From a candidate division CSSED10-310 bacterium (GTDB taxonomy: Bacteria; CSSED10-310), in contig PWNJ01000190.1 in NCBI GenBank assembly GCA_003558985.1, positions 1 through 35,584 on the forward strand: 35,584 nt of DNA. The letters run 5' to 3'. The position numbers and the translations under genes were made by a program. Below the pieces are notes generated by a model. That model did not search any database and was not told the origin of the DNA. It was given only the letters and a program-made list of their open reading frames with translations. This document shows positions 10,902 through 30,129 of the stretch, one piece after another; position 1 is the stretch's first letter; the number at the start of each line of letters is the position of its first letter.

Positions 10902-11408
10902 CTATTCAGTTTCAATTCTGTCGGAATCAACCTCTTCAGCATCATCGTCTGACTCTATCGTTTCGGCGAGTCCATTGCTGAGTTCAATATCAATATCTTC
11001 CGACATTGGTTCTGATTCCATCGATTCAGGTAATTGGATATCTTCTGACGATTCTGCTGCATCCGGATCATCGGCCATTTCAAAATCAATATCAAAATCT
11101 GCAGAATCCAGTTCGTCCGTTTCAACACCTGCAGCAGGTGCCGGTTCCGGTCTTTGATCGGGCATAACCGAACGAGTTCCTGTTCCGACATAAGCCAGAG
11201 AAATGGATGTAACCATAAATAACACGGCAACAGCCGTCGTCATTTTATTAAGGAAAGAGGTTGGTCCGGAGCCTCCGAATACCGCTCCAGCTCCACCACC
11301 GCCAAATGCACTGGCGAGATCCGACCCTTTGCCCGTCTGGAGCAAAACGATAAGTATCAGCGCCACTGAGAGAATAACATGTAAACCTAATAGTATGTAA
11401 GTAATCAC
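10902..11408 (-). CDS. secG: SecG translocase subunit with a long acidic C-terminal tail
   Basis: SecG assists the SecYEG protein-export channel in the inner membrane. Residues 1-85 look normal: a first transmembrane helix, the conserved VLLQTGKGSDLASAFGGG loop (about residues 21-38, with SGPTSFLNK following), and a second transmembrane helix. The protein then continues for about 80 residues beyond the usual length. The last 73 residues contain 32 Asp/Glu and one Arg, low complexity and probably disordered. I start at GTG 11408, about 10 bases after AGGAGG; a TTG at 11417 lies only one base from that Shine-Dalgarno. It is preceded by tpiA (93 bases) and followed by tRNA-Leu. The core assignment is firm; the tail function is unknown. 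Confidence 0.92.
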   Translation of the reverse strand: MITYILLGLHVILSVALILIVLLQTGKGSDLASAFGGGGAGAVFGGSGPTSFLNKMTTAVAVLFMVTSISLAYVGTGTRSVMPDQRPEPAPAAGVETDELDSADFDIDFEMADDPDAAESSEDIQLPESMESEPMSEDIDIELSNGLAETIESDDDAEEVDSDRIETE

Positions 11409-11501
11409 AAGCGTCAAGCCTCCTGATCAGCAAACGGAGCTTATAACAGATATGATTTCCGCTTGCAAGATCTTTTTATCCTGCAGCGATTAAACTGTCA
11501 A

Positions 11502-28230: not shown

Positions 28231-28545
28231 TTATTGATGAACAATATCGTCTATGCGGATTCGAGTGCAAAACTGACGATGACCCTGAAGCCGACGATAC
28301 CGTTTTTTTGGTTTCATTTTAAATACTCGTACCTTTTTATCGCGAAACTGATCCAGAATCGTAGCAGTTACCATTGCACCTTCAATATAAGGTTTTCCCG
28401 TGTTGATGTTATCGCCATCTGCAATCAGCAATACCCGGTCAAGATTAACCGTATCACCCGTTTGCTCAGGCAGTTTCTCAATTGAAAGAACAGTATTTTT
28501 TTCAACGCGATATTGTTTTCCACCAGTTTCAATAATAGCAAACAT
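28231..28545 (-). CDS. rplU: 50S ribosomal protein L21
   Basis: A 104-residue L21: MFAIIETGGKQYRVEKN at the start, a central LLIADGDNINTGKPYIEGA region and the C-terminal KPKKRYRRLQGHRQ rRNA-binding motif with FCTRIRIDDI. The start is the ATG at 28545, with GGAGG 8 bases upstream; an in-frame ATG at 28584 would add 13 residues absent from L21 proteins and lies in the leader. It is the first gene of the rplU-rpmA-obgE-nadD-surE unit. Confidence 0.98.
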   Translation of the reverse strand: MFAIIETGGKQYRVEKNTVLSIEKLPEQTGDTVNLDRVLLIADGDNINTGKPYIEGAMVTATILDQFRDKKVRVFKMKPKKRYRRLQGHRQFCTRIRIDDIVHQ

Positions 28546-28724: not shown

Positions 28725-28753
28725 TTGACATAAAACAATTGTAATGATAATAG
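28725..28753 (+). promoter_or_regulatory. Promoter of the rsfS operon
   Basis: A perfect TTGACA (28725-28730) is followed after 17 bases by TAATAG (28748-28753). Transcription would start near 28760, giving a leader of about 42 bases before the proposed rsfS AUU start. It is divergent from the rplU promoter, with about 100 AT-rich bases between. Confidence 0.75.
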
Positions 28754-28769
28754 TTTCTGGGCTAATAAC

Positions 28770-28844
28770 ATGGCTGTTGTCAAAGCTGTCTGGAGGCTGT
28801 TATTACATTTAAAGATAAAATTCATTTTCTTGTTACTGTATTAA
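28770..28844 (+). other. Possible 24-codon leader ORF overlapping the rsfS start
   Basis: An ATG about 10 bases after the predicted transcription start opens a short frame (24 codons ending in LLLY, TAA at 28842-28844). It runs out of frame across the rsfS start. It has only a weak GGG upstream. It may be chance, an attenuating leader, or the remains of a frameshifted rsfS start. Confidence 0.25.
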
Positions 28845-29185
28845 GAGAAAAAAATGCTGAAAACATTTCAGGTTTTGATTTAACGAAACTTGATGGTGTC
28901 ATTATTGACGGTTTCATTATTTGTTCCGGGCTGTCTGAAAGACATGTTGCATCTATTGCTGAACATGCAAAAACCAGGTTAAAAGAAGTCGGTGAGCCCA
29001 TCAGCCATATTGAGGGTGACAAGTTTAATCAATGGGTTCTGGTTGATTGCAGTGACATTGTTTTACATATTTTTCTTGATCAGATCAGAGAATTTTATCG
29101 GTTGGAAGATCTTTGGGCCCATGCAGAAACAATTGAAATTTCAGATGATGGAACACCCATAAAACCCCGGGTGGATGAAATGTGA
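28802..29185 (+). CDS. rsfS: Ribosomal silencing factor RsfS, apparent AUU start
   Basis: RsfS (YbeB/Iojap) binds L14 on the 50S subunit and blocks subunit joining. The 127 residues contain LREKNAENISGFDL, IICSGLSERHVASIAEHAK, the EGDKFNQWVLVDCSDIVLHIF block and REFYRLEDLW, all hallmarks of the family. The frame has no ATG, GTG or TTG between the upstream stop (28766) and this domain. GGAGG at 28792-28796 sits 5 bases before ATT 28802, and starting there gives 22 residues up to the conserved N-I/D-I point, the same as in E. coli RsfS. AUU is thus the likely start; CTG 28790 is less likely as it precedes the Shine-Dalgarno. The stop overlaps the next gene by 4 bases (GTGA). A sequence error (ATG to ATT) is possible. 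Confidence 0.9.
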   Translation: MTFKDKIHFLVTVLREKNAENISGFDLTKLDGVIIDGFIICSGLSERHVASIAEHAKTRLKEVGEPISHIEGDKFNQWVLVDCSDIVLHIFLDQIREFYRLEDLWAHAETIEISDDGTPIKPRVDEM

Positions 29186-30129
29186 AAAAGGCAAAACCGG
29201 ATTTTATAACTCAGGACCCGAATCTATTATCAATACTCAGTACAGCAAAACAAGTTGCGCCGTATAACACAAATGTCTTTTTAACCGGCGAAAGCGGCAC
29301 TGGCAAGGATCTGCTTGCACAATACATTCATGCCTGCAGTCCCAGATCTGTCCGGACTTTTGTAAAAATTGATCTTTCTGCTACACCTGAAACTCTGATT
29401 GAAAGTGAATTATTTGGCCACGTAAAAGGTGCATATTCCGGAGCACACCAGGATCGAGACGGCCGACTGAAAGCCGCTAATGGCGGCACGGTCTATCTGG
29501 ATCATATTAACGAACTGAATCAGCCTGTTCAGGCACGTTTGACCCGAGTATTGCAGGAACGTGAGTTTGAACCGCTCGGATCCAATATTCCGACAACCGT
29601 GGATATCCGGATTGTCGCTTCTTCAAGATATGATCTGGGAAGCTTGGTACAATTGGGCAAGTTTCGCGAAGATTTGTATTTTCGGTTAAGTGTCATGCCT
29701 ATCCATCTGCCACCACTAAGAAAACGTCCTGGAGATATACCATTATTGGCAAAGTATTTTCTGGAAAAGCATGCACAAATGTATGACAAGTCTGTACCTC
29801 GAATGGACACCGAAACAGTGGATCTGCTGTGTGCCTATCATTGGCCCGGCAATGTAAGAGAATTGCAAAATCAGATGGAACGCCTTGTAGTATCATCAAA
29901 TGACTCAGAAAATATCACTCCACAACAACTTCACCTCGAATTCGACTGTATCTCCGAATCGTCTCTGGAGATTCTTGCTGATCAAAATCTGAGTCTTGAT
30001 CAAATCGAAAAACTGTATATTCTTAAAGTACTTACGAAAACAAGAGGTAATAAATCAAAAGCAGCGCAAATTCTTGGAATAAACCGAAAAACTCTGCTCG
30101 AAAAAAGAAAAAAATTCAATCTGAAATAA
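29182..30129 (+). CDS. Stand-alone sigma-54-type AAA+ protein with Fis-like HTH, altered Walker B
   Basis: A 315-residue NtrC-family protein without any receiver, GAF or PAS domain. The AAA+ core has Walker A GESGTGKD (36-43), a sigma-54-contact loop GAYSGA (83-88) in place of GAFTGA, and Walker B GGTVYLDHI (101-109), in which the usual catalytic Glu after Asp107 is His108. FREDLYFRLSV and the arginine-finger region are normal, HWPGNVRELQN forms the sensor II block, and residues 291-315 form a Fis-type helix-turn-helix (KSKAAQILGINRKTLLEKRK). The GTG start overlaps the rsfS stop. It may activate sigma-54 promoters weakly, or act as a DNA-binding oligomer without normal ATP turnover. The likely target is unknown; a prepilin gene follows at 77 bases. 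Confidence 0.9.
   Translation: MKKAKPDFITQDPNLLSILSTAKQVAPYNTNVFLTGESGTGKDLLAQYIHACSPRSVRTFVKIDLSATPETLIESELFGHVKGAYSGAHQDRDGRLKAANGGTVYLDHINELNQPVQARLTRVLQEREFEPLGSNIPTTVDIRIVASSRYDLGSLVQLGKFREDLYFRLSVMPIHLPPLRKRPGDIPLLAKYFLEKHAQMYDKSVPRMDTETVDLLCAYHWPGNVRELQNQMERLVVSSNDSENITPQQLHLEFDCISESSLEILADQNLSLDQIEKLYILKVLTKTRGNKSKAAQILGINRKTLLEKRKKFNLK

Follow-up and report, generated by a model that had tools for sequence, protein, structure and literature searches.

In a bacterium of the candidate phylum CSSED10-310, the gene of the ribosome-silencing factor RsfS very probably starts at an AUU codon. On comparison of genomes, this putative start is one case of a recurrent pattern and not a lone odd gene, and rny has it in the clade too. 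As an RsfS protein, the product would be expected to bind uL14 and to block the joining of 30S and 50S subunits.

The rsfS frame and its start in the window

The window, i.e. the whole stretch of 35,584 nucleotides that was analysed, has the following features around rsfS.

28231–28545, minus strand: rplU, the first gene of a divergent rplU-rpmA-obgE-nadD cluster, which lies opposite rsfS in the relatives too
28725–28751, plus strand: probable sigma-70-type promoter (TTGACA at 28725–28730, GATAAT at 28746–28751), with ATTGACA and ATGATAA blocks identical in three genomes of the family
28770–28844, plus strand: out-of-frame ATG with a short ORF (24 codons and a stop), probably unused
28792–28796, plus strand: Shine-Dalgarno (SD) sequence GGAGG, followed by 5 nt (CTGTT) and then by the ATT at 28802
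28802–28804, plus strand: putative rsfS start codon ATT (AUU), which corresponds to residue 1 of solved RsfS; the frame offers no canonical start, and four relatives have ATT or ATA here
28802–29185, plus strand: rsfS coding sequence, 127 codons and TGA (29183–29185); TIGR00090 E 9.9e-29, PF02410 E 2.2e-27
29182–30129, plus strand: sigma-54-dependent regulator with no receiver domain, whose GTG start overlaps the end of rsfS

The identity of the product is given by TIGR00090, which scored 99.4 bits against a cut-off of 56.9 over residues 8–105 and covered the whole domain, and by PF02410 (96.5 bits, cut-off 21.6). After the TAA at 28766–28768 the frame reads CAT GGC TGT TGT CAA AGC TGT CTG GAG GCT GTT ATT ACA TTT AAA GAT AAA, and no ATG, GTG or TTG occurs in it from the stop at 28766 to the conserved fold. 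When the protein was numbered with ATT as residue 1, it had zero offset against five solved RsfS chains, the paired residues being 7-7 (2o5a), 14-14 (2id1), 9-9 (9q40), 13-13 (6sj6) and 15-15 with the 105-residue chain 30qz/7bl2. An earlier sequence-only reading had described a frame lacking ATG, GTG and TTG between the stop and the conserved domain, had placed GGAGG 5 bases before the ATT, and had noted that starting there gives the N-terminal length of E. coli RsfS. On re-reading, the frame and the coordinates of GGAGG were as described. Only the context of the comparison needed correction, as E. coli rsfS starts with TTG (L099) and not with ATG.

The promoter scan found TTGACA, with a match count near the shuffle expectation and a short spacer of 15 nt. 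In the leader alignment of three family members ATTGACA, ATGATAA and TATTAC were kept and little else. The length of the rsfS leader is inferred to be about 40–45 nt, and folding of the leaders of three genomes gave no significant structure and none in common. The sigma-54-dependent regulator also adjoins rsfS in three of the relatives (G001, G002 and G003, defined below), and this activator is possibly co-transcribed or co-expressed with rsfS.

Elsewhere in the window, secG (10905–11426, minus strand) starts with GTG, separated from AGGAGG by a long spacer of 10 nt, and G002 is arranged alike. It was rejected as a near-cognate candidate, as the aligned codon of G002 is GTG too.

Starts of rsfS in the CSSED10-310 order

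The order was compared in five genomes, all of them draft assemblies: the window genome (G000), two other genera of the same family (G001 and G002) and two from the sister family (G003 and G004). The RsfS proteins of the four relatives are 41–60% identical to the window protein, therefore these are distant and independent genomes, and the frame is intact in all five. The start regions of the relatives are as follows.

G002: TGA AAA AAG GAG GTT GTT ATT ACT TTT GAA GAC AAA; ATT start
G001: caaAGGAGGatcgct ATT ACT TTC GAA GAA AAG; ATT start (shorter excerpt AAAGGAGGatcgctATT)
G003: TGA AGC AGA TTC AGG AGG TTG CTT ATA AAT CTT GAT; ATA start
G004: TGA GGA GAA GAA AAA ATA AAT TTT CAC GAA AAG; ATA start

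The aligned start codon is ATT in three genera and ATA in two, and each stands behind an SD sequence, the counterparts of GGAGG being AAAGGAGG in G002 and G001, AGGAGG in G003 and GAGGAGAA in G004. Throughout the order the putative near-cognate start of rsfS is thus either AUU or AUA. Alignment of relatives was the check proposed in the sequence-only reading, in which ATT or another non-ATG codon behind a conserved SD would speak for the AUU start, and its outcome was positive. The same reading had named an ATG at 28802, or a joining of the ATG at 28770 to the rsfS frame, as the findings that would speak against it; neither was found in the relatives. The AUU start that it proposed is therefore well supported by the relatives together with the zero offset to the solved chains.

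The genome containing the window is a draft of 259 contigs that is 60% complete, so a sequencing or assembly error could in principle have turned a true ATG into ATT, or introduced an indel separating the ATG at 28770 from the frame. We regard such an error as highly improbable, as the same codon, again behind an SD sequence, is ATT or ATA in independent genomes, and the ATG at 28770 has no equivalent in any relative; the relatives make a chance finding unlikely too. Even less probable is that rsfS is a decaying pseudogene which has lost its start codon. It has no canonical start, as such a gene might, but the frame is intact in all five genomes at this level of protein divergence; the SD sequence, the promoter blocks and the synteny are conserved, and no frame-breaking change was seen in the close relatives.

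Initiation at another codon was also considered, and appears unlikely. The codon CTG at 28790 is in frame, but it overlaps the SD sequence and is not conserved. Initiation at a downstream codon, for which a GTG 12 codons after the ATT in G002 could be cited, would delete the first conserved segment of the protein. In G002, G003 and G004 in-frame stops lie 4–8 codons before the AUN codon, so upstream starts are excluded in these genomes save for a TTG of G003 that is in frame upstream of ATA and fused to the SD sequence. The other exception is G001, where in-frame ATGs occur 19–20 codons upstream of the ATT. The absence of a canonical start before the conserved core, in the terms of the survey below, was found also in G002 and G004. 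The ATG at 28770 lies near the inferred 5′ end and could serve with a frameshift, but no equivalent ATG-led ORF runs across the start in G002, G001, G003 or G004, and this reading was rejected.

Near-cognate starts of rsfS across bacteria and of rny in the clade

The survey of starts covered 149 distinct rsfS genes, drawn from many families of bacteria, and a gene was counted as having no canonical start when its frame held no ATG, GTG or TTG as far as 13 codons ahead of the conserved aspartate. The best in-frame start was ATG in 72 genes, TTG in 42 and GTG in 17, and 18 genes spanning about 14 lineages had none. Among the controls a canonical start was missing in 0/30 RRF genes and 0/30 nadD genes (0/60 together). 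In infC, which is known for near-cognate starts, it was missing in 11/30 genes. The difference of rsfS from the controls (p 0.002) and the rate of 12% are both nominal, as related genomes are counted and the sampling was partly selected: 40 of the 149 loci were taken mostly because their open frames are short, and three because they are sisters of positive cases. Outside the selected sets, 8 of 78 loci had no canonical start, and the order of the window genome contributed two of these 8.

An SD-backed ATT, ATC or ATA was found near the expected start in 15 of the 18 genes, the next codon box reached 6, and CTG adds two. Most of the SD-backed AUN codons fall at the alignment column of the ATT at 28802. 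Seven more rsfS genes do have a canonical codon, yet the SD sequence before an AUN or CUG codon is much better. The finding was repeated in sister genomes, with ATT in G027, G312 and G174, ATC in G365 and G098, ATC/ATT in G120 and G257, ATC in G178 and G031, and ATC in G067 against ATA in its congener G208. The third base of the start thus drifts among sister genomes and never to the G of ATG. The rsfS genes of other lineages that have ATT, ATC, ATA or CTG and no canonical start include fourteen loci (L068, L228, L010, L257, L281, L252, L271, L270, L273, L277, L233, L267, L049 and L280). As judged from these alignments, rsfS recurrently uses putative near-cognate AUU, AUC, AUA or CUG starts in unrelated bacteria, as infC does. 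No earlier description of near-cognate rsfS starts was found in the open-access literature searched, outside which most subscription journals lie.

AUU starts elsewhere in the clade were sought in about 1.9 Mb of G002 (about three quarters of the genome; 1,599 ORFs by longest-ORF selection), with candidates ranked by a near-cognate codon with a strong SD sequence and no nearby canonical rival. Among the SD-backed AUN candidates rny, the gene of RNase Y, came first and rsfS second, both with ATT, and the lower-ranked candidates look like chance matches inside frames. Since only these two stand out in the scan, AUU is no general habit of the clade, and it marks at least these two genes. Each of the five genomes of the order has ATT at the start of rny, and the phylum outgroups G005 and G007 have ATG. 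The sequences upstream of this ATT are gggaggtgagagca (G000), gggaggtgagagcc (G002), ggggggtgagagcc (G001), aaggaggtgagtccg (G003) and aaggaggtgagtgca (G004), so that it stands behind GGAGGTGA or GGGGTGA (L142 on contig C225 of G000, L144 in G002, L145 in G001, L141 in G003 and L143 in G004).

Proposed throttling of RsfS synthesis and possible dependence on IF3

We propose that rsfS would be initiated at AUU 28802 behind the strong GGAGG, on a short leader made from its own promoter. The start codon would have been selected to be weak, and the anti-association factor RsfS would consequently be made at a low, throttled rate. The strong SD sequence would secure binding while codon recognition would remain limiting. 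The rate of RsfS synthesis would then depend on the stringency of the 30S initiation complex against non-AUG codons, chiefly on the activity of IF3 relative to 30S subunits, and RNase Y in the clade would be under the same kind of start. That the AUU start serves to throttle expression is quite likely on the comparative evidence, and AUU initiation and throttling are likely also when taken jointly. That AUU is in addition a regulated, IF3-dependent switch is put forward tentatively, at somewhat less than an even chance.

Near-cognate starts with strong SD sequences are known from Staphylococcus aureus, where AUU and AUA give about 10% of AUG expression (PMC13009471). These are the conserved AUN starts of ccpN (AUA) and cvfC1 (AUU), which are unrelated genes and, in contrast to rsfS, were mapped by retapamulin profiling. 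IF3 represses non-canonical starts, as shown for infC and for the GTC of Streptomyces sigR (PMC5472188), and as it does so wherever studied, a coupling of RsfS synthesis to the IF3 level or to the state of the ribosome, as put forward in the sequence-only reading, is plausible. Like rsfS, sigR has a conserved non-canonical start, which holds a stress regulator low; however, it is a sigma factor gene whose IF3 dependence is experimental, whereas the rsfS case is known here from sequence. Furthermore, RsfS and IF3 are both anti-association checkpoints, and they rise together in a strain of E. coli whose 30S assembly is defective (PMC13246957).

A close parallel is infC itself, the IF3 gene with AUU, AUC or AUA and autocontrol by IF3, which shares with rsfS an SD-backed AUN start, recurrence across bacteria and a product that keeps the subunits from associating. 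The binding site of RsfS, however, is on the 50S subunit, and RsfS itself does not judge start codons; it would thus have no direct autoregulation. The apparent start of infC in G000 and G002 is ATG (GGGAGGtctATG). The family of the window genome thus shows no sign of the classic IF3 feedback loop, a finding that bears on the loop and not on the repression of rsfS. In other members of the phylum the start of infC looks like TTG, CTG or ACG.

Among single infC loci, the apparent start is CTG in G005 (L094, AGGAGGtgttgtCTG) and ACG in G007 (L095, AGGAGGtgttccACG). In G001 two contigs each have an infC copy (L096 and L098); the copies differ, and one of them is divergent and may be contamination. 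L096, on contig C29, has an apparent ATT start (GGAGGgaccgccATT).

The AUU could equally be real and yet a fixed low-output start, which keeps RsfS scarce and does not respond to IF3 or to the state of the ribosome; we give this about an even chance. Weak rsfS starts of any kind are common, with ATG in less than half of the surveyed genes, and the apparent ATG of infC in the family also speaks for it. The same gene has the non-AUG start UUG in E. coli (PMC10917681), UUG being a standard alternative start, which AUU and AUA are not. In PMC1780047 E. coli pcnB, the gene of poly(A) polymerase, is cited as a known AUU start that merely limits the expression of an RNA-decay enzyme; it is a different gene, which the ATT of rny in the clade parallels. 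Against a fixed start, IF3 has disfavoured such codons in every case tested, and some dependence would therefore be hard to avoid, and AUU, AUC and AUA are stronger measures than low output alone would need, since UUG or a weaker SD sequence would do. A static throttle and IF3-dependent regulation explain the same data equally well.

In its widest form the proposal would place rsfS beside infC as a second widespread gene of a translation factor in which many bacterial lineages repeatedly hold the start at AUU, AUC or AUA (or CUG). The codon stringency imposed by the 30S-side anti-association factor IF3 would set the level of its 50S-side counterpart RsfS. CSSED10-310 would then have a two-gene AUU group of rsfS for ribosome silencing and rny for mRNA decay, comparable to infC and pcnB of E. 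coli. This full form is possible but rather doubtful.

Near-cognate starts are regarded as exceedingly rare and are passed over by gene finders. Genes with such starts are therefore truncated or missed in annotation, and rsfS annotation would have to be corrected in many genomes if the pattern holds. We consider rsfS as a recurrent near-cognate gene, with rny as its companion in the clade, a more interesting result than a single AUU start. If rsfS regularly starts with AUU, AUC or AUA, the initiation machinery would control ribosome silencing at the step of codon recognition, and RsfS and IF3, two proteins that keep the ribosomal subunits apart, would be linked. These findings suggest that many bacteria make RsfS from a deliberately weak start signal.
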